IMG/VR virus record: IMGVR_UViG_3300025012_000156
Span: 1 to 45,473 of that record
Strand: one strand, 5' to 3'
DNA: 45,473 nucleotides
Origin: a virus
The translations under genes and the position numbers were made by a program. Under the pieces are notes generated by a model that was not told where the DNA came from, made no database searches, and was given only the letters and a program-made list of their open reading frames with translations. Shown here piece after piece: positions 1,761 to 40,047 of the stretch (position 1 is the stretch's first letter; each line of letters starts with the position of its first letter).

Positions 1761-2261
1761 TTATAAATCTCGGCGAATTCCTAGTAATGCCACCTGACGG
1801 ACAACCCGCTTCGGTGGCCATTCCAGCTCAATACCAATTGCAGCTAGTGTATCAGTGACGTTCACGCCCATCCCCTCCGGACACCATGTCTCCTCATAGC
1901 CAGGGAAAGAAACAAGCGCAGCCTCAATTTTGGCCTTCAGTTGTTTCCGCGCAGTTCCCTGCCAGTAAAGCACACAGTAAAGCTGCCGCTCCGACCAGGC
2001 GGGGTTTGCAGCTTTCATTCGCCCCACATGCGCCGCCAGATCGAATTCATTGACCACGGCATACACTGGCCGGGTTAAGTCGAACGCCTCATGGAAAAGG
2101 GGTGCTTTCGGAGGGCACCGGTCGCACTTGCCAACATTCGGACAACCCTTCGGATGCAGAGGGTATGGTTTTACACACAGACCGCGCACCTGATAATCAA
2201 TTTCCGGGTCAACTTCGATAGCTCCCACGGCGTTATCTCCAAACAAATTGAGGTTCGACAT
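1761..2261 (-). CDS. Hypothetical protein with conserved cysteine cluster
   Basis: 166 aa. Residues about 28-52 hold the pattern C...HPKGCPNVGKC..CPPKAP. Similar cysteine-proline clusters occur in phage and bacterial proteins of the predicted metal-binding DUF2284 kind, so a metal or Fe-S site is plausible (inference). The rest has no catalytic motif that I recognise. Ribosome site GGGAGG precedes ATG 2261; the stop sits in TAACGG. Confidence 0.75.
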   Translation of the reverse strand: MSNLNLFGDNAVGAIEVDPEIDYQVRGLCVKPYPLHPKGCPNVGKCDRCPPKAPLFHEAFDLTRPVYAVVNEFDLAAHVGRMKAANPAWSERQLYCVLYWQGTARKQLKAKIEAALVSFPGYEETWCPEGMGVNVTDTLAAIGIELEWPPKRVVRQVALLGIRRDL

Positions 2262-2278
2262 TGTCCCTCCCGATTTAT

Positions 2279-2328
2279 AACAAAACGTAGCAGCAGGCGA
2301 TGAAGCCCGCTGTTGTACTCAAGCCGTT
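2279..2328 (-). repeat. Junction hairpin with AAC...GTT ends
   Basis: Plus-strand reading: AAC 2279-2281, GTA 2287-2289, then GCAGCAGGC paired with GCC/GCTG at 2305-2312, TAC 2316-2318, GTT 2326-2328. The outer pair again includes the stop codon of a neighbour (2327-2536). Same layout as 818-878 and 10797-10846. Confidence 0.5.
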
Positions 2329-2536
2329 ATTTACCCTCAAAATTCACCTTACCGTCTTTTGTCTCATACAGGAAAAAACAGTCACCCACTGAATGCTTGG
2401 CGATCCATTTTCTTCCATTAATATCTGTGAGAGTCATGCCGTTGATACCGGCACCCATTGTGTCCTGCGATTGACAGCCCGTAAATAACAAACAGATGCA
2501 GCCCACCAACATCATTGCCGTAATTAACTTTTTCAT
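2327..2536 (-). CDS. Small lipoprotein
   Basis: 69 aa. Residues 1-21 form a lipoprotein signal (KK, hydrophobic core, lipobox LFTGC), so the mature protein would be acylated at Cys and held at a host membrane. The remainder has a short beta-rich segment (LTDINGRKWIAKHSVGDCFF). Possible roles are superinfection exclusion or envelope modification; neither is shown. Its ATG overlaps the stop of the 22-aa ORF upstream (ATGA), suggesting coupling. Confidence 0.75.
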   Translation of the reverse strand: MKKLITAMMLVGCICLLFTGCQSQDTMGAGINGMTLTDINGRKWIAKHSVGDCFFLYETKDGKVNFEGK

Positions 2537-2601
2537 GCGTTTCTCCTTTTATTGTTTTCTCTACCGAAGTAGAGGGGCTGATCTGCCACATTACCGTCCA
2601 T
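2533..2601 (-). CDS. Tiny ORF, 22 aa
   Basis: Starts with MDGNVADQPLYFGRENN and has an excellent ribosome site (AAAGGAGGGGG) just before the ATG. It ends in an ATGA overlap with the lipoprotein gene. It may be a real micro-protein or a leader peptide that delivers ribosomes to the lipoprotein start. Confidence 0.45.
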   Translation of the reverse strand: MDGNVADQPLYFGRENNKRRNA

Positions 2602-2612
2602 ACCCCCTCCTT

Positions 2613-2705
2613 TTACCTGTTCGTCCGACGGTAGCTGTCCCATGTGAACTGAAGCATCATAGATTTACCCTCGCAGAAGCGGTCTTCCTTTTGAATGGAT
2701 TCCAC
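2613..2705 (-). CDS. Tiny ORF, 30 aa, GTG start
   Basis: Reads through from GTG 2705, two bases after the stop of the loader-like gene, to TAA 2613, with a protein-like sequence (RFCEGKSMMLQFTWDSYRR). A shorter version starts at the internal MM. It fills an otherwise empty 100-base gap in a compact operon, but the ribosome site is weak. Confidence 0.35.
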   Translation of the reverse strand: MESIQKEDRFCEGKSMMLQFTWDSYRRTNR

Positions 2706-2706
2706 G

Positions 2707-3165
2707 TCACATAGCTTGCTCAGTTGGATCAAGTCCATACCCTCGTTCACGGTACATGGACATAGTGTCCATTGCCTCTTTGCGCCATCCCAAGCCTGGG
2801 AATAGTGCGTCCATGTGCATCATTCCTTCTACAAACTGCCGTCTTGTAAGCTTCCCTGTTTGTATGCCGTCAATCAGTTTGTTTGCCATCTCGCCTTGAT
2901 TCTCAAACTTAGTGATGGTCTTGCACTCTACTTGTTTCACTGGTCGGGGAGGGATAAGCCGCTGATACGTTTTGAGTGCTACCGGTGTCGGGAATTTAGG
3001 CTCGTTCATCATTGCCGACGAGATGCAAAACTCTGCATCTTCGATTGTCAGGTGCTGCAAAGCAAGGAACAGAATTTTTACAATATCCTTATCTTCCGGC
3101 TTTCCAAATGCCTTGAACATGGCAACAGATGCCGCCAGGAATCGAGGCTTGTCTTGATCGGTCAT
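2707..3165 (-). CDS. Helicase-loader-like replication protein
   Basis: 152 aa. The N-terminal half is a helical region with the pattern seen in phage helicase loaders/inhibitors such as SPP1 G39P: a run of acidic/hydrophobic helices followed by PKFPTPVALKTYQRL. No Walker A motif is present, so it is not a DnaC-type ATPase. It overlaps the replication initiator by ATGA (3162-3165), the usual initiator-loader pairing. The function is inferred from pattern and context. Confidence 0.6.
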   Translation of the reverse strand: MTDQDKPRFLAASVAMFKAFGKPEDKDIVKILFLALQHLTIEDAEFCISSAMMNEPKFPTPVALKTYQRLIPPRPVKQVECKTITKFENQGEMANKLIDGIQTGKLTRRQFVEGMMHMDALFPGLGWRKEAMDTMSMYRERGYGLDPTEQAM

Positions 3166-4711: not shown

Positions 4712-4725
4712 GGTGTCTCTCTCCT

Positions 4726-5448
4726 CTATTCCACTATCCCATAGTTTATCTTGATACATTCCCGAGCAGTTGAAAGCGTCCCGTCCTTATCCCATATCGC
4801 ATCATGGAGCATATCTAGGCATTCATTTGCGGTATGTATCTGAACAGAGTTAATTGCCTGCTTTATTTCTACTTCAACACAGTCTAGTGGGTCGCCACTA
4901 TCGCAACCGGAAGAATCCGCGCAATACTCTTGATGCAACCACTTGAGCCGTTGACACCATCGAATAGCCTCCGCATCAATTCCTGCCTCAAATGCGGCAC
5001 TTGCTGTGCTAAATGGTGTACGAATCTTGTCCTGATTTGCTTCTGCTTTCTGCCAGTAATCATGGAATTGATCATTCATTCCCTCCCCCCTCCCCGCCAG
5101 ACAGCGCGGACAATCGACATGCCCCTCGTTGGTATCCTGAATGCCGGTATCCCCGCCGCAATAGTAGGGATATGATGAATGGACGTGCGTTACATGCTCC
5201 CTGCGGAGGATCTGCATCATCATTTTCTGGCAGCAGGCGGCTTGCTGTGCTAGCTCTCGGAATGACCCGTGTGGCCCGTGATGGTCGCCAATATTGATTG
5301 CTAACTCGACTTCATCAGCTTCGCCCATTGTCGCCCTGAACATGCCCATGTACGTGTAATCATCCCACATGCCATGCTTCGCTATCCCTTTGAACAACTC
5401 CCGGTGTATGGCGCGCTCTATCGTTTCGCGCTCGGTTGCGGTTATCAT
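4726..5448 (-). CDS. Hypothetical phage protein
   Basis: 240 aa. The N-terminal 80 residues are helical with conserved-looking GEADEVELAINIGDHHGPHG and a following QQAACCQKMMMQI helix, a layout often seen in phage nucleotide-metabolism proteins, but I cannot assign it. A central CxxC (CPRC) occurs near residue 117. It overlaps the downstream end of the 5445-5750 gene by ATGA. Confidence 0.65.
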   Translation of the reverse strand: MITATERETIERAIHRELFKGIAKHGMWDDYTYMGMFRATMGEADEVELAINIGDHHGPHGSFRELAQQAACCQKMMMQILRREHVTHVHSSYPYYCGGDTGIQDTNEGHVDCPRCLAGRGEGMNDQFHDYWQKAEANQDKIRTPFSTASAAFEAGIDAEAIRWCQRLKWLHQEYCADSSGCDSGDPLDCVEVEIKQAINSVQIHTANECLDMLHDAIWDKDGTLSTARECIKINYGIVE

Positions 5449-8195: not shown

Positions 8196-9536
8196 TTACC
8201 GGGCCGTAGCCGGGTAATGGATCTTCACCCACAGTTCTTTGACAGATAGTAACCCTTGATCCTTTAGACATTGGTTAGTCAGACCGGTCTGGGCCGCAAG
8301 TCTTCGAGACATCGCCCACGGGCCGCTTCTGTTCAGGCCCGCGCGGATGGCAGTGCCGAGTTGTGTACCAAGCGCGAGAAGATTCCGAATCTTGGTACGG
8401 CACCAGCGCCACTGTTTCCAGTAGCACAGCCGTATTCTTCGCCGTATCCAACCGTCTATTTCCGGGATTTCACGGTAATACTCCGAGATGCCGAAGTAGC
8501 CCATCCAGCCACGGAGATATTGGGCCAGCTTATTCAACCGGTACTTCATGGAGACCCGCCAGCTTCTTCCGGTGTACTGCTTGACGCGGCGTCTGAATTC
8601 CCGGTATGCCTTGTCAGACCAGATGATGCGGGTTCCGCTGAAGATGAAACCAAGAAAGTCGATGCGGGATGTTCTTGCTACCGAACTTTTGGTTTCATTG
8701 ACCGTGAGCTTGAGTTTGTGCGTCAGGAAGGTTTTCATGCCTTCCATCACCCGGTCACCGGCACGCTGGCTTTTGACCAGTATGACAAAGTCGTCAGCGT
8801 AGCGGACGAATTTGTGACCGCGTGTCTCAAGCTCTTTGTCCAGTGTGTCGAGTAGGATGTTGGCTAAAAGCGGTGAAAGCGGCCCACCCTGGGGTACACC
8901 CAGGCGGGTCTTTTCCAGCCGCCCGTTTACCTTCACTCCGGCTCGCAAGTACCTGCCTATCAGGGATAGAACCCGCTTGTCGTGGACCTTTCTGCTCACA
9001 ATATGCATGAGCAGATCGTGGTTGACCGTATCGAAGAACTTGGCAAGGTCGATATCCACGGCAATACGGTATCCCTGCCGGATGTACTCCCGTACCTGCC
9101 GGACAGCGTCTTTCGCTGAACGACGAGGACGGAAACCGAAGCTCGATTCCGAGAAATCCGGATCGAAGATCGGCGTCAACACTTGGGCAATGGACTGTTG
9201 GATCAGCCGGTCAAGTACGGTGGGTATCCCCAGTGGGCGGGTTCCACCCGTTGCTTTGGGAATTTCCACCCGTTTAACCGGCAGGGGTTTGTAACTGCCT
9301 GTCGTCAGCGATTCGCGAATTTCTTTCCAATGAGAACGGGTATGGTCGGGGAATTGTTCGATGGTGATGCCATCGACGCCGGGTGCGCCTTTGTTTGCTC
9401 GCACCCGTTTCCACGCTTGCTCCATATTCGCACTGGAGAGTATCCGCTCCAGTAGGTGTTGCTCCGGGGTTGGCTGGTCAATGACGCGCTCCATGGGCAT
9501 TCCCCCGGACGGGTTCTTTATGTCATGAAAGCTCAT
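8196..9536 (-). CDS. ltrA: Group II intron reverse transcriptase/maturase
   Basis: 446 aa from ATG 9536 (ribosome site GGGAGGAG). Reverse-transcriptase blocks are clear: RPLGIPTVLDRLIQQ, SSFGFRPRRSAKDAVRQV, the catalytic FVRYADDFVIL, and GVPQGGPLSPLLANILL. The C-terminal part matches the maturase (X) domain and ends without an HNH endonuclease, as expected for class C. It aids splicing and copies the intron RNA into DNA at new sites. It is a bacterial class C protein, not a DGR reverse transcriptase. No frameshift or lost catalytic residue is seen. Confidence 0.95.
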   Translation of the reverse strand: MSFHDIKNPSGGMPMERVIDQPTPEQHLLERILSSANMEQAWKRVRANKGAPGVDGITIEQFPDHTRSHWKEIRESLTTGSYKPLPVKRVEIPKATGGTRPLGIPTVLDRLIQQSIAQVLTPIFDPDFSESSFGFRPRRSAKDAVRQVREYIRQGYRIAVDIDLAKFFDTVNHDLLMHIVSRKVHDKRVLSLIGRYLRAGVKVNGRLEKTRLGVPQGGPLSPLLANILLDTLDKELETRGHKFVRYADDFVILVKSQRAGDRVMEGMKTFLTHKLKLTVNETKSSVARTSRIDFLGFIFSGTRIIWSDKAYREFRRRVKQYTGRSWRVSMKYRLNKLAQYLRGWMGYFGISEYYREIPEIDGWIRRRIRLCYWKQWRWCRTKIRNLLALGTQLGTAIRAGLNRSGPWAMSRRLAAQTGLTNQCLKDQGLLSVKELWVKIHYPATAR

Positions 9537-10018
9537 TGGGGCTCCTCCCCTTTCTTCGTTCGGCCCTTCGGCGGGGTAAGACTTCCCGGACTCTCCCGGG
9601 CTTGTTTCCAGCCGCTTGATCGCTTGAAAGCGGCGTCCGTCGCCTACTATGGCTTTTGCTGACTTCTGCCCCATCACGGCAGCTGTTGCCAGCGGCCGCG
9701 CCATCAGGAAACAATGGCATGCGGGACAGATCTCCCCGGATAAGAACGTGAACTGTCGCTACACAACCGCAGCATTTACCATTTCTCCTGAATCCGTGGA
9801 ACTTCGTCATGTTGTGCTGACTTGTCCGGATGATGGCCTTGTATGCTGTTTCTGTTCGTCGGCTCATAGCTTTGCGCTCCGGCTTCCTCCAGACCCCTCC
9901 TCGCGGAGACGCCCTTGCCTTCGGCTAGTACTTGTTTTACCCTGTCCTCGCGACAGTGACTGGATTCTCGTACAGGGGACTTGCACCCCATAAGTTCACG
10001 CCCATGACGGGCGTACAC

Positions 10019-27014: not shown

Positions 27015-28871
27015 TTACTGACCTTTCCTACCCTTGATCCTTCTCCTTGCTGCGGCTATTTCTCTCGGCGTCATCCCCGATTGTTTCATGGCGCTTGGGT
27101 CATACACCCCGCCCCGTTCCCCTGCTATAAATGTCCGTGACGACGGCAATTGTTTCTGACGGTTCGGAAGAAGACCGGCAACCGGACGCTCCATATCCAC
27201 TGTTGCCGGCTGGCGTTGCGGTCTGAAATCCTGAGTACGGACAGGGGGGATATATTCACCCTCTATAGCGGGCCTTACTGCCGGGAGATTTGATGCATCA
27301 CCCTTGATCGCCCCGTACTCTTCTTGTAGCTTCGGCACTGCCCCCGCCTTCCTCAATTCATCAAGTTTGGACTGTAAAGTCGCTTTTATTGCTCCGAGCC
27401 TGTTGTTAAGTTCAGCCTTCGGAACTGCTCGACCTCTCGCCTTGTGCATAGCAATGGCAAGATTGGCTTTAATGGCGGGAGTATCAATAAGCCCTACCAG
27501 TGCGCCCACAATGGCCCCTTTTGGCCCACCCATCGCCCCTGTCGCCATTTTTATTGGTACACCTATGCCTACCATGTCCCGGTTCTCTATGCGGTTTACG
27601 GCCTTAAACAACACCTTTTCCAGATTGATAAGGGTGGAGTCTTTCGCGTTCAGTTCGGCAAGTTCTGGTATCTGGTTGACAATCTCTTCCTTGGCGCCTC
27701 TGGCCATGGCTTTCTTTGCTTCGACCTCAAACCCTTTCAGTTCACCGTATGCATTTTTAAGTTGCTTATATGTGTTGACCTTCATGGTCTGTGCAACGTC
27801 TACCGGTATCTGCCCGTTTACCACTGAGGGGTGGTCGCGTAATGAAGCGGCAAAGTCGTCGATCTTGGCAAGTACGTTGTTGTTGTCACCAAAGGAGTCA
27901 ATCGCCCGCTGTTTCACATCATCCAAACGGCTAACGATATCCTCCACGTTAATCATCTTGCCGCCTTGCGTGGATTCTTTTATCTTCTGCCCGATCTGGC
28001 TGTTAAGGTCGTTGATGTTGTCGTACAGTCTGCCGAGTCCCTTCTTGTTGGGAACATATCCGCCTTCAAGACCTGCCTTGACGTTGGCGGCTCTCTGTGC
28101 CATCGGTATGACGGTACTCTGCTTGATTGAACTGGCGTAAAGCTTCTCAGGGGTAAGCCCGACTTTCTCCACTCCTGCTGATGCAAGGTCGCGCAGAGAC
28201 TTTTTAGCTGCCATACCCCCGAACGCCATTAGCCCCGAGCCGAGCGCATCGTTTTCCCACGCTTCACGGGCGGCGGGCATATCCATATTCCCTTTTGCCA
28301 GGTCAACAAGCCCCGTGGGTGCCAGCATCCCCTTGACGTTCTCCCCCACAAAGCGCCCCACGCTCCCCTGTTCTGGACTCGTAGCGGCACTGTACGCCCC
28401 TTTTGCCAGTTCCGGCATGGCGTAGGCTAGGTTAGTAAGTGACTTGTCGGGATTATTGATAACGCGGTTGATACCGGACAGCATCGCCCCGCCCGTGGTT
28501 GGGCTTACCTGTGGCCCCAATGTTTCATCCACGGTACGCTCGGCATACACCGGGTCGGCATACTTACCCAAGGCGGCATCAGCGACACGCCCCGCGAGAG
28601 GCAAGCGTCTGACAGCTTCCTGCTTCAAGTCCCGCTTGCCCTGTGAGCGGATGAATTGCGCCATGCCAGCGCGGTATTTGGGATCATTGACGAGTTGTTT
28701 TGTGTACTCCTGTGGCGTTTGTTGCGGTGCGGCGGGTTTGTCAGTCCCACCTGCCAAATGGTCATACACTCCCGGGTACTTGGCAATGATCTTTGATTCC
28801 AATTCCCCATCGGGTAATGAATCGTAAGCGCCGGGATACTTCGCCCTTATTTTAGATGCAAGTTCGCCCAT
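27015..28871 (-). CDS. Ejection/internal virion protein (P22 gp16 slot)
   Basis: 618 aa. Two N-terminal copies of the motif (I/A)KYPG.YD.L.(D/G)..EL, frequent in podovirus ejection proteins, then a long helical body and a glycine/alanine-rich hydrophobic patch (GAMGGPKGAIVGALVGLID) able to enter a membrane. The C-terminus is basic and ends AARRRIKGRKGQ. In P22 the third ejection protein (gp16) helps DNA cross the inner membrane; the assignment here rests on order, size and composition. Confidence 0.7.
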   Translation of the reverse strand: MGELASKIRAKYPGAYDSLPDGELESKIIAKYPGVYDHLAGGTDKPAAPQQTPQEYTKQLVNDPKYRAGMAQFIRSQGKRDLKQEAVRRLPLAGRVADAALGKYADPVYAERTVDETLGPQVSPTTGGAMLSGINRVINNPDKSLTNLAYAMPELAKGAYSAATSPEQGSVGRFVGENVKGMLAPTGLVDLAKGNMDMPAAREAWENDALGSGLMAFGGMAAKKSLRDLASAGVEKVGLTPEKLYASSIKQSTVIPMAQRAANVKAGLEGGYVPNKKGLGRLYDNINDLNSQIGQKIKESTQGGKMINVEDIVSRLDDVKQRAIDSFGDNNNVLAKIDDFAASLRDHPSVVNGQIPVDVAQTMKVNTYKQLKNAYGELKGFEVEAKKAMARGAKEEIVNQIPELAELNAKDSTLINLEKVLFKAVNRIENRDMVGIGVPIKMATGAMGGPKGAIVGALVGLIDTPAIKANLAIAMHKARGRAVPKAELNNRLGAIKATLQSKLDELRKAGAVPKLQEEYGAIKGDASNLPAVRPAIEGEYIPPVRTQDFRPQRQPATVDMERPVAGLLPNRQKQLPSSRTFIAGERGGVYDPSAMKQSGMTPREIAAARRRIKGRKGQ

Positions 28872-28879
28872 GATATCCC

Positions 28880-30295
28880 CTAGAGTATTCCGAGTGGGTC
28901 TTGTTTGCCTTTGGGAGGTGCAGGATTGCCGCCTTTATTGCCTATTCTGCCCTTGCGGTCATTGCGGGTATCTTCTATCTGCTCCTTCACTGATTTAATC
29001 CGCATATCCCCGGCATGTTTAGTCTCTTTAAGGATTTTCAACATGTCATTGACGGACAGGTTTTTGTCGTGAATCTTGGCCCATTTCTCTTGAGCGCCCA
29101 CTGAAAGTTCTGCGACGCTGGCAGTCGATCCAGTTGAAAGTTTGCCGATCTCGTTTTCGATTTCCGTGATGTACATGTCGTATATGGACTGTTGCGGAGA
29201 ACCCGCTATCATCTGTCGGAATTTGCGGATAGGTACGTTCATCAACCTTGCGTCGGCGGTGTAAAGTTCTGCTCCAATTTGCCCCACACGGTCAATTTGT
29301 GCGTTGAGGTTTTTAACAAAAGAGCCCATCGAACCTAGCTGTTTTTGCTGTTGTGTCAGCGATGAAGAGTAAGCAGAGTTTTCAGCGCGTGAACCGGCGT
29401 AATCAGCCCCACCGTTCTTTTCTACCCACTTGATAACGCTGCTTCTGACTGTGCCTCTATTTGGCACATCTTGGAGATTAGCGCGGCCTTCCTGTATCGC
29501 TCTACCCCATGCTTCTACGTCATCGCCCATGTCACCATTGCCACCAGAAGCAGGCTTGTACCTCGGTGCGCTACTTACCTTCTTCCAAGTTCTACCGCCG
29601 TCCTGTGACTCTTCGGCCACAGTGGTGTTTCCGGTGTTGTATTCGCGGAACTTGTATTCTGCTTTCTGCTCCACCGGCTCAATCTTGTTGAACTGGTACG
29701 GCTGTTCTGGGTTGCCCGTTGCCGTCCCTATTACTTTGTACGTGCCGGCCGGCAAGAACTCTTGCGGGTTCATCGGATTACGCAACTCACCGTCCTTGAA
29801 TGGTTTGGTAATCTCCATTTTGGTATCATCGGCAAAGGATACATATTGAGCCATCGGTGCAAGCTCCGGGTCTTTCATCATTTCCGCTTTGGTGTACTCG
29901 GTCAGAAATTCAGGACGCATCCCCAGGGATTTATACGTCTTGATGCTATCAAGATGCTTGGCAGACATTTCAGCCCGTTGCTTCTTCTTGGCGGCTTCCT
30001 GCGTGGCTTTCATTTCAGCCAGGTAAGCGTCTTGTGGGTTATTGACACCGTAAAGCGACTGTCTCGCCCCCTGTTGCGCCTGCTGGTCCTGTAACTGCGC
30101 TTCTGCGCCCTGCATCTCCATCTCACCACGTCGCATCTGCAAATCCGCCAGCGAGTTCCGCCGCGTCCGGTCTTCCCGCTCGACTCCGCGTTTTTGGATA
30201 TCGGAGAGCGTGCCGCTGATCTGGTCCATACCCTCGGCCATCGGGTTACGTGCGCCCATGTATTGGGCATAAGCCATGTAATTTGGTTCAGCCAT
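28880..30295 (-). CDS. Ejection/internal virion protein (P22 gp20 slot)
   Basis: 471 aa, hydrophilic and Gln/Met-rich at the N-terminus (QLQDQQAQQGARQSLYG), then a beta segment and a helical C-terminus ending GKQDPLGIL. No enzymatic motif. Position between the two other ejection candidates supports a role in the injected tube. Sequence similarity to P22 gp20 itself is not visible. Confidence 0.65.
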   Translation of the reverse strand: MAEPNYMAYAQYMGARNPMAEGMDQISGTLSDIQKRGVEREDRTRRNSLADLQMRRGEMEMQGAEAQLQDQQAQQGARQSLYGVNNPQDAYLAEMKATQEAAKKKQRAEMSAKHLDSIKTYKSLGMRPEFLTEYTKAEMMKDPELAPMAQYVSFADDTKMEITKPFKDGELRNPMNPQEFLPAGTYKVIGTATGNPEQPYQFNKIEPVEQKAEYKFREYNTGNTTVAEESQDGGRTWKKVSSAPRYKPASGGNGDMGDDVEAWGRAIQEGRANLQDVPNRGTVRSSVIKWVEKNGGADYAGSRAENSAYSSSLTQQQKQLGSMGSFVKNLNAQIDRVGQIGAELYTADARLMNVPIRKFRQMIAGSPQQSIYDMYITEIENEIGKLSTGSTASVAELSVGAQEKWAKIHDKNLSVNDMLKILKETKHAGDMRIKSVKEQIEDTRNDRKGRIGNKGGNPAPPKGKQDPLGIL

Positions 30296-31265: not shown

Positions 31266-31739
31266 TCACCCTATCCTTTGAGCCAATTGAATCCCTGACT
31301 CCATGAATCCGCGTTTTCTCAAATAGTCGCCCCATGTTTTGAACTCTGGTTTGGGAACATAACTAATCTTGAAATACAGCGGCCCCCTCTCTCTGATTTT
31401 CTCCACTATCGCGTCAAGCATCTTTATCATTATCTTGCACCTCTGAAACGTTGGCAGGTCCGGTGCGGCGTGATGTGCCATTTCCAGGGCTTGTGTGTTC
31501 ACCCTATGCCATAACCCTTTAGCGGGGTAATAAACCACTGACACGCCCACGATGCGGCTTCCTTCACGTGCTACAACAATGTCATGGTTCGGCTGTGTCA
31601 ATACTGAGGTCCACCACTCCACCATTGCATCGTACTCCCATGAATTGCCGGTTTCCTCAAAGCCCATTTCATCAAACATCGGCTTTGATTCGATCATCAG
31701 ACCGGCAAGGTCTTTCATGGTGGGGGTGTCAATTATCAC
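31266..31739 (-). CDS. GNAT family acetyltransferase
   Basis: 157 aa. The DIVVAREGSRIVGVSVVYY strand pair is the GNAT beta2-beta4 core; the acetyl-CoA segment lies in the following helix (QRCKIMIKMLDAIVEKI), with a less canonical Q/RxxGxG loop. C-terminal LRKRGFMESG is the usual beta6-beta7 region. It would move an acetyl group from acetyl-CoA to an amine. Encoded in the late operon, 11 bp overlapping the radical SAM gene; substrates may be virion proteins (inference). Confidence 0.8.
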   Translation of the reverse strand: MIIDTPTMKDLAGLMIESKPMFDEMGFEETGNSWEYDAMVEWWTSVLTQPNHDIVVAREGSRIVGVSVVYYPAKGLWHRVNTQALEMAHHAAPDLPTFQRCKIMIKMLDAIVEKIRERGPLYFKISYVPKPEFKTWGDYLRKRGFMESGIQLAQRIG

Positions 31740-32646
31740 GGATGATCCTCGTTACAAGGTTGTCGATCTTGTTCCCTTTGCCGTGATACCAGGGAGCGCA
31801 AAAGTTCTCCATGATGTCAACGTTCTGTGCGGTGTTCCATGAAATCAGCATGAGGTTGATATAGTCCATCTCCACCGGGCAGAATATGGTCTTAGGGGAG
31901 AACATGCGCCCCATGCAGTGACCTTTCTCGACAAGGAGCTTGTACATATCAGAAACGAAGATTCCCGCTGTCTGGTCTTCAATGTTGCCACCTACCGGCG
32001 CGGCCATGTGCATCCTGAACACGTCGCAAAGGTCTTTGCCGATTACGGCCGCATCTTGGATATGCTGGTAATACCCATCAAGGCTGTTGTCGGTGTAGAT
32101 GATCGAAGCAAACCTATGCCCGTTGTCTTTGGCCTCTTCCACCCGCTGATTGAACAACTCTTCCGATTCGGGGTGATGTGATAGCGTCCACTCACACGGT
32201 AAATTCCAATCAATTTTGTATCCGTTGGTGATAACGGAAACGCGATACCCCATCTCTTTCAGCGCTTGAACAATGGCGGGGAGATCCTCTCTCAGTGTCG
32301 GCTCACCACCGGATAGGATAATCAAGTCACCCTGCGGCATTTGGCTGGCAAGAGTCATTATCCGCTCGACCGGCACGTCATAATTGTCCAGGTGCTGAAA
32401 ACACCACTTGCAGCGGAGGTTGCAGCGGTAGGTCACGTCAATGATTAAGCCCGGGTAAAAGTATTTCGCGTTATTTCGCTGCACCATCCCGTAAAATGAC
32501 GCATCTCTTTCGACTATCCCGTGAAATAACCCATGTTCAGGGCATACCTTCCGCATAACCGCCATGCCGTCAATCTCGTAGATGGTCGCTGGAATGTCGC
32601 AAAGACAGCGCGGGCAAAGTGATATGGTCTGCTTGAGTACGGTCAT
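31729..32646 (-). CDS. Radical SAM enzyme with N-terminal zinc-ribbon-like motif
   Basis: 305 aa. The cluster-binding motif C75-x3-C79-x2-C82 (DVTYRCNLRCKWCF) and GGEP at 113-116 identify a radical SAM enzyme, which cleaves SAM to a 5'-deoxyadenosyl radical. N-terminal C11, C14, C16, C35, H38 (CPRC...CPEHG) match the N-terminal signature of the Tes/MJ0619-like group. Three C-terminal cysteines (C244, C256, C283) could hold an auxiliary cluster. Its ATG overlaps the needle-slot gene by ATGA and its end overlaps the GNAT gene. Substrate unknown; peptide or protein modification is one option. Confidence 0.9.
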   Translation of the reverse strand: MTVLKQTISLCPRCLCDIPATIYEIDGMAVMRKVCPEHGLFHGIVERDASFYGMVQRNNAKYFYPGLIIDVTYRCNLRCKWCFQHLDNYDVPVERIMTLASQMPQGDLIILSGGEPTLREDLPAIVQALKEMGYRVSVITNGYKIDWNLPCEWTLSHHPESEELFNQRVEEAKDNGHRFASIIYTDNSLDGYYQHIQDAAVIGKDLCDVFRMHMAAPVGGNIEDQTAGIFVSDMYKLLVEKGHCMGRMFSPKTIFCPVEMDYINLMLISWNTAQNVDIMENFCAPWYHGKGNKIDNLVTRIIRDN

Positions 32647-33311
32647 GTCGCCAATATCCCCGATGTTCTCAGTTTGGCTAAAAGCGCGTTGAAATCTGTC
32701 ACAATGCCGGGTACATCAATGGCGGTGCTGTTGGCGTGTGCCGCTGTCTGTGCCACTGATACAGTCAATGTGTTGGCTACATCGTCGTAAGTCAGCGTCA
32801 CAGCGTTGCCTGCAGTCAACATGCTTGCAATATTGTCCTGAATATCCTCAAGCGTGTGATGGATGGTTACATCTGCCGTGTGGTCTTGCCACACCTTGGC
32901 CTGCCCATTTGACAGGTGCTTGTCCTTAACAACGTCCGTGTCCGATGGGTCAAGCACCCCTATCGCTTCGAGCATGTCGTGGTCGGTTCCGTGCGGGTTG
33001 CCGTCTATCACTTCGACATGGTCCTGCCACACCTTGCCATCGGCGTTGGATATGTGCTTTACCTGCGCTGTGTCGGTTCCGGTAGTCCAGCCGAGTACGT
33101 CGGTCAACATGGCATGGGTGCGTGTCTCAATGTCGCTTAACTTCGAACCGGCTTTATTGATGATCCCCCACGCCACGCCCCCAGCGAATGACAGCACCCT
33201 TTGCAGTTGCTGTATCCACCGCTCCCATTGCTGAGACATCCCCCCACGTGCGTTTATGATCGGCTCACGCGGAACGGGGGGGAGTGTGGTTTGTGGGTTT
33301 TCACCGGCCAT
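32643..33311 (-). CDS. Virion protein in the tail-needle slot
   Basis: 222 aa. N-terminal VPREPIINARGGMSQQWERWI is common in podovirus tail proteins. Then two similar modules: HISNADGKVWQDH...GNPHGTDHD and HLSNGQAKVWQDH...IHHT, a repeat pattern of trimeric fibre-like proteins. A final SVAQTAAHANSTA leads to a short C-terminus. Encoded directly after the gp10-like gene, as gene 26 is in P22. Confidence 0.7.
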   Translation of the reverse strand: MAGENPQTTLPPVPREPIINARGGMSQQWERWIQQLQRVLSFAGGVAWGIINKAGSKLSDIETRTHAMLTDVLGWTTGTDTAQVKHISNADGKVWQDHVEVIDGNPHGTDHDMLEAIGVLDPSDTDVVKDKHLSNGQAKVWQDHTADVTIHHTLEDIQDNIASMLTAGNAVTLTYDDVANTLTVSVAQTAAHANSTAIDVPGIVTDFNALLAKLRTSGILAT

Positions 33312-34772
33312 CTATCGCCTCAAATAAGTGACATCTTCGCTGATCGTATTAATGACAAACTCGCCCGTACCGCGCTTTACGTTGTACCTGTAGAAATTAG
33401 CCACCTTGGTAACGTCTACTTGGTGGTTTATATGTCCACTCTTCACCAGAGCGCGAAATATCGCCCCTGCGTCGCTTAAGTCGGAAAAGCCTATCTCATG
33501 TTGCCGGTACACGTAAGAACCGCACTGGACCGAATCTGAGGGGCGACGATAATCACCAACCTTGCCAAGGGATATGGTTCGGGGGTTGCTCCATATTTTC
33601 TTGCCGTTATCTCGCCATCGGTGGGTAAATACCGGCTCTGCGTCATAATCAATAACGGCATCAGTGCCGAGAGTGTAAAGTTTCCCGTCACGCCCGCCGA
33701 TGAACTGTAGCCCCCATGGCTCGGCGTAGGTAAACGAGCATCCCCGGTATGATTGCCACTGTCCTGAATCACCATCCCACTTAGCGAATATCAGCCACAT
33801 CTTAGTTTGGATGTGATAGGCAAAGGTCACGGAGGGGTAATACTGCTCGTCGATGATCGTGTTAGCAGTGGGGAAGTCCAACACATAGAAGTTCTGACCC
33901 TTGAATGCGACAATGAAGCCCCTCGCATCGTCCACGCGCTCAAACTGCTCGATAGGTAGGTCAATGGGAAATGAGATGATTTCAGGAGCGCCCCCTCCGG
34001 TCAGTTTCACAACCTTGCGGCTTTCGGTTACTTGGGAGATGTAATAAATACTCTCCCCATCAAACGCCACCGAGTGAGGGGAAGGAGTGCCGAAGTGTTG
34101 AGCGGCGTTTTTGTTCACGGAGAATGGAACAGTACCGTCAACATAGGTGACTTCCAGCGTCCTCTCTCCGATGTTGTAAACCTGCTCGTAAGCCACAACC
34201 AGCGCCTGCACTCCATCAGGATTGCTCTCGTTGTTGTACACTTCCCACAATGCGTACCCATTCACTTTGTCGTCGCTGTAGAACGTGTCCCCGTCAACCA
34301 CTCCAGTTGAATCATCACCAATGGCTTGCAGATATCCGCCGATGTAGGCAAGGCCTGTCACCTTGTCAGGAGCGTTACCGGCAAGCTGTGTGATCGTCGC
34401 GCCGTATTTGTTGATAGGACCGTTTGCGGCAAAGAAGATATCTGTGCCGTCATCGGTGAACACGGGGGGGTAGCCACTTTCCAATACTGCCCCGGTCAGT
34501 TCGGTGACAGGTCCGAGTGCCGACGTTTTAGCCCATACACGGCCAGCGGCGACTATCATCAGCACGTTATGCCCACGGATGAACTCGCAGAACACCTCAA
34601 CGCCAGGGCCGACACCGATATCAGCGTTGAGCGTCAATCCCGGTATGGTGCGGATGGCCTGCCCACGGTCCATGTAGCAGTTGTAATAGGCAACAGACGA
34701 ACCATCGTGGAGCGTGGAGTCGTCAACATCCAAGTTGATACCGGCACCTATGGGAAGGGGTTTAAGTGGCAT
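33312..34772 (-). CDS. P22 gp10-like tail hub / packaged DNA stabilisation protein
   Basis: 486 aa. Beta-rich throughout with GG-turn repeats (AYIGGYLQAI, FIGGRDGKLYTLG), starting MPLKPLPIGAGINLDVD; size (P22 gp10 is 472) and order after the gp4-like gene agree. It closes the portal channel and holds the spikes. It follows the 34773 gene with no gap. Confidence 0.82.
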   Translation of the reverse strand: MPLKPLPIGAGINLDVDDSTLHDGSSVAYYNCYMDRGQAIRTIPGLTLNADIGVGPGVEVFCEFIRGHNVLMIVAAGRVWAKTSALGPVTELTGAVLESGYPPVFTDDGTDIFFAANGPINKYGATITQLAGNAPDKVTGLAYIGGYLQAIGDDSTGVVDGDTFYSDDKVNGYALWEVYNNESNPDGVQALVVAYEQVYNIGERTLEVTYVDGTVPFSVNKNAAQHFGTPSPHSVAFDGESIYYISQVTESRKVVKLTGGGAPEIISFPIDLPIEQFERVDDARGFIVAFKGQNFYVLDFPTANTIIDEQYYPSVTFAYHIQTKMWLIFAKWDGDSGQWQSYRGCSFTYAEPWGLQFIGGRDGKLYTLGTDAVIDYDAEPVFTHRWRDNGKKIWSNPRTISLGKVGDYRRPSDSVQCGSYVYRQHEIGFSDLSDAGAIFRALVKSGHINHQVDVTKVANFYRYNVKRGTGEFVINTISEDVTYLRR

Positions 34773-35090
34773 CTATTCGTACTCCATCGTGGTCAGTGCC
34801 TGATGCAGTAAATGGGCGGTCAAGTCGATGAAAGGCTCGTCTTGATGCAGATAATCACAGTCTTTCGCCTTGGCTGTCTGCGAGTGGTACACCACAAAGT
34901 GCATGAGTTCGTGGAGGAATGTTTGTTCCCGTTGGCTGTCGCTCTTGTATGGCATGTTCGGGTTCATCTGTATTTCATTGGTGCGATATGAAGCGAAGCC
35001 ACAAACATCGGTCTTTTCCGCAAAATGCACGGTATCCCATGTGACTTCTATGGTCTGCCCCATCAATTTAAACCGTTTGGGTATTCTCAT
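34773..35090 (-). CDS. Small HExxH metallopeptidase-like protein
   Basis: 105 aa. H60-E61-L-M-H64 (FLHELMHFVVYHS) is a zinc-peptidase motif, preceded by a beta-strand region (GFASYRTNEIQMNP) like that of SprT/IrrE-type peptidases. A downstream acidic residue (D/E in HQDEPFID) may be the third ligand. It overlaps the gp4-like gene by one base. It could process a virion protein or a host factor. Confidence 0.72.
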   Translation of the reverse strand: MRIPKRFKLMGQTIEVTWDTVHFAEKTDVCGFASYRTNEIQMNPNMPYKSDSQREQTFLHELMHFVVYHSQTAKAKDCDYLHQDEPFIDLTAHLLHQALTTMEYE

Positions 35091-39747: not shown

Positions 39748-40047
39748 TTAGCCCTCCTTAACTACGCAAAGACAGTCTTCGTCATTAACCACCCTGTAAT
39801 CAATCTCGCCGTCCTTGACGTTCTCACCGGCATACTTGCGGAAGATAACCTTGTCACCCACCTGCGCCCATGGCGTGCCATCGTCAAACGCTTTCCATGC
39901 GTTCACACCAACGGCAACTACAGTGCCGCGCATGGTTGCTTGCTGGTCACGCTCCTTGGTAGTGGCGGCGAGAATAATACCGCCTGCCGTTTTCTCTTCC
40001 ACCGTTTCCGGTTGAATCAATACTCTGTGGCCGCTTGGCTCAATCAT
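39748..40047 (-). CDS. GroES-like co-chaperonin
   Basis: 99 aa. Cpn10 features are clear: GHRVLIQPETVEEKTAGGII (mobile loop ends GGII), GTVVAVG, and GDKVIFRKYAGE with YRVVNDEDCLCVV. There is no GroEL gene in the window, so it must work with the host GroEL, like T4 gp31, to enlarge the folding cage for coat protein. Next to scaffold and coat genes. Confidence 0.92.
   Translation of the reverse strand: MIEPSGHRVLIQPETVEEKTAGGIILAATTKERDQQATMRGTVVAVGVNAWKAFDDGTPWAQVGDKVIFRKYAGENVKDGEIDYRVVNDEDCLCVVKEG

Follow-up and report, generated by a model that had tools for sequence, protein, structure and literature searches.

A phage-specific family of short radical SAM enzymes in an interchangeable slot directly upstream of a small ejection protein gene

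The closest described relatives of the enzyme discussed here are the large radical SAM proteins of the Tes/TrsS type, which are about 440–490 aa long. The rubredoxin-like iron site of GDGT-MAS/Tes has the form C9X2C12X20C33X2H36 (PMC9433317). The Tes reaction also requires a C-terminal [4Fe-4S] cluster, which holds the substrate intermediate. On the phage side, the counterparts by position are T7 gp13 (PF11090) and P22 gp14 (PF11039), late proteins of about 140–160 aa whose genes stand immediately before the gp14/gp7 ejection gene; Pfam lists the first as a 'probable scaffold protein' and the second under 'head morphogenesis', and neither is a radical SAM protein. Is there a precedent for an enzyme of this chemistry being tied to the virion? 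Full-text literature searches turned up no phage radical SAM enzyme described as linked to the virion, and no account of enzymatic maturation of a DNA-ejection protein was found either.

The DNA analysed here, called the window below, is the whole 45,473-nt stretch (positions 1 to 45,473) of IMG/VR virus record IMGVR_UViG_3300025012_000156. A second contig, 3300025030_000257, is 100% identical to it over the stretches compared. The gene order is Hc3, a fibre-like protein, a radical SAM enzyme, a GNAT-like ORF, an ejection protein and two more ejection-slot proteins. This matches the P22 order 10-26-14-7-20-16, so the placement of the two enzyme-like genes in the gene-14 slot, made in the original prediction, is correct. 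The genes and motifs are:

33312–34772, minus strand: head closure protein Hc3, P22 gp10-like (phrog_578, 1.3e-20)
32643–33311, minus strand: 222-aa head-fibre-like protein in the needle slot (C-terminus of PF11133, E=5.8e-8)
31729–32646, minus strand: radical SAM enzyme, 305 aa, with a rubredoxin-type N-terminal domain, a radical SAM core and a diverged C-terminal half
32533–32616, minus strand: C11-X2-C14-X20-C35-X2-H38, mononuclear metal site (rubredoxin-like Fe or Zn), spaced as in GDGT-MAS
32401–32424, minus strand: C75-X3-C79-X2-C82, radical SAM [4Fe-4S] motif
32299–32310, minus strand: GGEP at residues 113–116, SAM binding
31798–31917, minus strand: C-terminal segment with C244, C256 and C283, no auxiliary-cluster motif recognised
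31266–31739, minus strand: GNAT-like ORF, 157 aa, GTG start, sub-threshold GNAT, lacking the RxxGxG/A loop
30305–31261, minus strand: first ejection protein, P22 gp7-like (phrog_598 'DNA ejection', 1.4e-5)
28880–30295, minus strand: second ejection-slot protein, 471 aa, conserved in relatives
27015–28871, minus strand: third ejection-slot protein, 618 aa, conserved in relatives

Both slot ORFs are real, as are their overlaps (ATGA at 32643–32646, and 11 nt at 31729–31739 between the radical SAM gene and the GNAT-like ORF), and late co-expression with the virion genes, as first proposed, is supported. All the motifs named at the outset are present as well: the radical SAM cysteines, GGEP, the N-terminal CPRC...CPEHG and the three C-terminal cysteines. 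The 222-aa gene is at most a putative needle gene, its sole match being a head-fibre C-terminus; 124 of its 222 residues are identical to the product of the gene upstream of radical SAM in a sister locus, L110. Elsewhere in the window, a small SprT/HExxH-type metallopeptidase gene lies at 34773–35090, a type that recurs in the late region of some relatives (in L118 it is the gene upstream of radical SAM). A GroES-like co-chaperonin gene (39748–40047) stands between the portal and capsid genes and is conserved in Alcaligenes phage QDWS535 and in Manatee Spring phages, and an ORF of the early region (8196–9704) resembles, by eye, a group II intron reverse transcriptase/maturase.

What kind of enzyme is the 305-aa protein? 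It matches both PF04055 (radical SAM, E=3.4e-12) and PF23545 (HMPTM N-terminal zinc ribbon, E=5.4e-15) above the Pfam cut-offs. It shares with Tes/GDGT-MAS (MJ0619, HMPTM) a CX2CX20CX2H site of identical spacing and, with the Tes/TrsS type in general, the CX3CX2C core and GGEP; this type also gives its best NCBIfam scores and its best Foldseek match. Against the curated cut-offs these scores are low, 88.6 bits versus 450 for Tes and 86.5 bits versus 490 for TrsS (63–89 bits for the window and its relative L006 together, versus 450–490). The N-terminal auxiliary cluster of Tes/TrsS, three Cys plus His (CX3CX2C...H) ahead of the core, was found in all four TrsS comparators checked and is absent from the window protein and from the four phage relatives checked (L006, L018, L019, L031), a gap that an alignment shows too. 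The phage proteins are also shorter, at 305–349 aa, and have no recognisable C-terminal auxiliary-cluster domain; in the window protein the three C-terminal cysteines form no motif in which the C-terminal [4Fe-4S] cluster of Tes could be recognised. Because the auxiliary cluster motif is missing and the scores fall far under the cut-offs, the window protein is a relative of the Tes architecture and not a Tes. Prokaryotic viperins (pVip) match only the generic core, over about 75 residues (71–146), with 46 bits versus a cut-off of 180; in contrast to them, the phage protein adds a rubredoxin-type domain and adjoins a structural gene. A defence reading was rejected, as PADLOC matches only this generic viperin core.

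AlphaFold models of both window proteins, built from shallow alignments, are poor (mean pLDDT 47–48), and that of the radical SAM protein has low confidence outside its N-terminal domain. With this low-confidence model Foldseek ranked Tes first (7tol, 9.7e-10; 7tol/7tom between 1e-9 and 1e-8), and viperin-type cores were matched too.

Closer relatives are found among phages. Starting from the window and extending stepwise to L006, then to L018, L019 and L031, the search reached about 37 viral contigs, which form a new phage-specific radical SAM family of ~340 aa (about 330–350 aa), with one further member in a contig binned in a Geobacteraceae MAG (L031). In a scan of genomes L031 was the only full-length hit among the matches listed; the others listed were partial, and those opened were TrsS-like. 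The carriers are uncultured short-tailed phages, and no cultured phage with the short family was found in INPHARED. Across 24 members there is no or almost no variation in the Zn/Fe site, the cluster cysteines, SGGEPT, H171-PKN and C199; the C-terminal half of the family has, besides HPKN and C199, RCYPVP...NEG. This near-invariance of the metal ligands, SGGEPT, H171-PKN and C199 indicates that catalysis is under selection. Two contigs deserve a remark: L102 carries, besides the short family, a second, different radical-SAM-like protein upstream of its tail genes (1803–3074, 423 aa, GRGCPYQCTYC), and the L019 contig looks chimeric, its radical SAM gene being convergent with, and overlapping, an opposite-strand P22 gp10-like gene.

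How does the window copy fit into this family? Its residues 6–144 align to the short family (L006, L018, L019, L031) in one unbroken match of 105 bits, whereas the match to TrsS breaks into two pieces of just 30 and 46 bits; by this measure it joins the family over its N-terminal two domains. The C-terminal half scores 3.9 bits against the family (best shuffle 6.2) and 0.5 bits against TrsS, with which it does not align, and is not demonstrably homologous to that of the family. In the tree the window branch is very long (5.35) and its placement unsure. Given the unalignable C-terminal half and this branch, the properties of the family may not hold for the window protein.

The strongest regularity of the family lies in its gene neighbourhood. 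In all 24 non-redundant complete loci of relatives with a readable next gene (L006, L031 and loci within L098–L132), the gene immediately behind radical SAM is of ejection type, starting within -20 to +130 nt and mostly within -10 to +4. The encoded proteins are small, mostly with an N-terminal hydrophobic helix, and among 24 downstream proteins scanned with PHROGs, the window's included, 17 matched phrog_598 and three phrog_21132, both 'DNA ejection'. The window differs from all 24 relatives in having the GNAT-like ORF between radical SAM and the ejection gene. The linkage extends to a second genome type (L098, L099, L100, L103), in which the order is terL, an 84/88-aa protein, radical SAM, a 122-aa hydrophobic protein and portal; here we infer an ejection role for the 122-aa protein. 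The genes upstream of radical SAM vary among loci, and the upstream gene was rejected as an alternative substrate, its products being variable with no conserved motif seen. The window enzyme thus shares its N-terminal two domains with a phage family that sits directly upstream of a small ejection (pilot) gene, and the idea that an ejection protein may be the substrate, part of the original prediction, is supported by this placement.

The other part of that prediction, that the radical SAM enzyme and the acetyltransferase form one coupled modification pathway, is not supported. In the window, and likewise in the sister contig that is 100% identical to it, the two genes are adjacent and overlapping, but no second independent pair exists among the 24 radical SAM loci: not one has a GNAT before the ejection gene. 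Relatives instead have radical SAM without GNAT (24 of 24), GNAT without radical SAM, a cupin-like gene or nothing, all three of GNAT only, radical SAM only and neither being common. A search for the window GNAT in 12 related records found nothing, although GNATs here are so divergent that this search cannot settle the matter by itself. The GNAT assignment itself is under threshold, and the coupled pathway is very improbable. The refuting observation named with the original prediction, related phages carrying only one of the two genes at random sites, is half borne out: they do carry only one, yet its position with respect to the ejection gene is constant and not random. The better finding is that phages have a radical SAM family which stays coupled to an ejection gene.

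Is the 157-aa ORF an acetyltransferase at all? Pfam and PHROGs see GNAT similarity, in each case weak: PF13527 gives E=0.053 and 14 bits versus a cut-off of 25, under threshold, and a phrog acetyltransferase profile E=0.07. The acetyl-CoA loop [RQ]xxGx[GA] was not found in it, a profile built from the slot GNATs of other phages gives it 4.1 bits, no better than shuffles (3.9), and apart from the identical contig neither IMG/VR nor INPHARED yielded a close homologue. Its AlphaFold2 model (pLDDT 47.8) has no significant Foldseek match, and the STING and EscU rows of the structure comparison (Foldseek/VIA-align) are meaningless at that confidence. It resembles T7 gp13 and P22 gp14 in size, late position and placement directly upstream of the ejection gene. 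It has no detectable sequence relation to them: neither PF11039 nor PF11090 matched, and a profile link to either was rejected (hhalign probability under 1%). T7 gp13 and P22 gp14 may be GNAT folds, a possibility given no weight as evidence here. Alcaligenes phage vB_Af_QDWS535 and Alteromonas phage ZP6 carry an acetyltransferase-annotated gene between their tail/fibre and ejection genes; these loci have no radical SAM gene, and the window GNAT is not demonstrably homologous to theirs. The safest description of the ORF is that of a slot occupant whose activity is uncertain.

Seen across relatives, the slot holds one interchangeable enzyme-like gene, which is cupin-like, GNAT or radical SAM, or it holds nothing; two slot genes side by side were found in the window alone. 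Cupin-like occupants, a label that rests on weak Cupin_2 scores where PHROGs calls short tail fibre proteins, are found in Sphaerotilus R1, Shewanella X14, Dickeya Amaethon, DSL-LC05 and L009. Among 78 classified loci of the DSL-LC05 type, 60 are cupin-like and four GNAT, and L202 is a fifth GNAT by another check. GNAT occurs without radical SAM in Alcaligenes phage QDWS535 and in L171, L176, L189, L191, L200 and L202, the last six having RGSGAG in their slot GNATs, with significant Pfam scores for the two scanned. The slot is empty in L007 and L015, and T7 gp13 or P22 gp14 stands at the equivalent position in those phages. L006 has radical SAM in the slot and L009 a cupin-like gene, yet their ejection proteins are 88% identical; the slot enzyme can thus be exchanged without much change in the ejection protein, which speaks against a strict enzyme–substrate link.

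What, then, does the slot protein do? Unrelated enzyme folds in one place are what would be expected of a slot that tolerates insertions and houses an accessory enzyme, made late or ejected, whose target is a metabolite, lipid or nucleotide of the host, or host defence. In the relative L005 a Tad2-like gene (4724–4984; Thoeris anti-defence, PF11195, E=2.6e-27) lies just after head-closure Hc3, so the late region can carry counter-defence genes, and the nearest structural match of the window enzyme is a lipid-modifying one, with viperin-type cores matching too. However, the Tes and viperin family cut-offs are missed by a wide margin, and free cargo need not follow the ejection gene to the terL–portal region, yet none of the 24 radical SAM genes lies elsewhere. 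A host- or metabolite-directed enzyme is the main rival, if a somewhat unlikely one. The annotation of T7 gp13 and P22 gp14 as scaffold or head morphogenesis proteins offers another answer, in which the slot protein would assist the ejection proteins as chaperone or scaffold and the enzymatic folds would be reused scaffolds; the missing acetyl-CoA loop of the window GNAT-like ORF fits this. Against this, every one of the 24 radical SAM family members, or every one but a single exception, keeps the cluster ligands, SGGEPT and the rubredoxin-type site, and several slot GNATs keep RGSGAG; an assembly helper is decidedly unlikely. The reading we prefer, in which the enzyme's substrate is the ejection protein or a different protein of the virion, is itself tentative, with a probability of roughly 0.4. 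Gene placement suggests, without proving it, that the radical SAM enzyme chemically finishes the ejection protein.

Where on the ejection protein could such a modification lie? Behind canonical radical SAM genes, ejection proteins start Met-[W/F/Y/V/I/M] in 22 of 24 cases, nearly all with a clear Shine-Dalgarno sequence; behind cupin-like genes all 60 start Met-[T/S/A/P], and behind GNAT genes all four start Met-Ala. Of 15 other podoviruses, taken as a mixed sample, only one or two (L009 depends on the start chosen) have a large residue 2. The residue after Met decides, by the methionine aminopeptidase rule, whether Met is kept or lost; most radical SAM-linked ejection proteins would therefore keep it and the others lose it. 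The contrast (22/24 large versus 64/64 small) consists of raw counts uncorrected for kinship and physical linkage, and so the signal is a lead: as the ejection gene's N-terminus abuts the slot, it may co-vary with the occupant simply through linkage. In a well-supported radical SAM subclade (L123–L128, L131) the ejection proteins are extended at the N-terminus by 13–28 aa ahead of the hydrophobic helix; the extension, whose end is often [WF][CM]G, looks leader-like and may likewise be only linkage. The more specific proposal, that the family installs a radical-derived modification at a Met-aromatic/hydrophobic N-terminus and that the exchangeable slot enzymes (cupin-like, GNAT, radical SAM) are each matched to a different ejection N-terminus, is rather unlikely; it would amount to enzymatic maturation of a DNA-ejection protein.

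The preferred reading, modification of a virion protein, would run as follows. The radical SAM enzyme would be made late, together with the ejection protein, and through a 5'-deoxyadenosyl radical would alter that protein, most likely close to its N-terminus, or else another virion protein. This would take place before or during assembly, and the ejected protein would then work better in the host envelope. The GNAT-like ORF would be a separate occupant of the same slot type, additional here, possibly lacking catalytic activity and not a pathway partner. The window copy is an outlier, with its diverged C-terminal half, the intervening GNAT-like ORF and a replaced ejection N-terminus: its first ejection protein begins MCADF and lacks the N-terminal hydrophobic helix of relatives. 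In L110 a canonical 348-aa radical SAM gene is flanked by a matching fibre gene and an ejection gene (about 50% identical) whose product starts MWVAA; in the window the canonical radical SAM gene and the MWVAA N-terminus are replaced by the diverged radical SAM gene, the GNAT-like ORF and MCADF. The window phage may thus have had its canonical radical SAM gene replaced, or strongly diverged, the ejection N-terminus changing along with it.

An unsolved question is how the ejection proteins of podoviruses refold to form a channel through the host envelope. A set of enzymes with a genetic tie to the smallest of these proteins would suggest that it matures covalently, and would offer a concrete, testable substrate. 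The family also defines a compact radical SAM architecture, a rubredoxin-type site plus core with no N-terminal auxiliary cluster, useful for asking what role the rubredoxin-type site plays in the larger Tes/TrsS enzymes.
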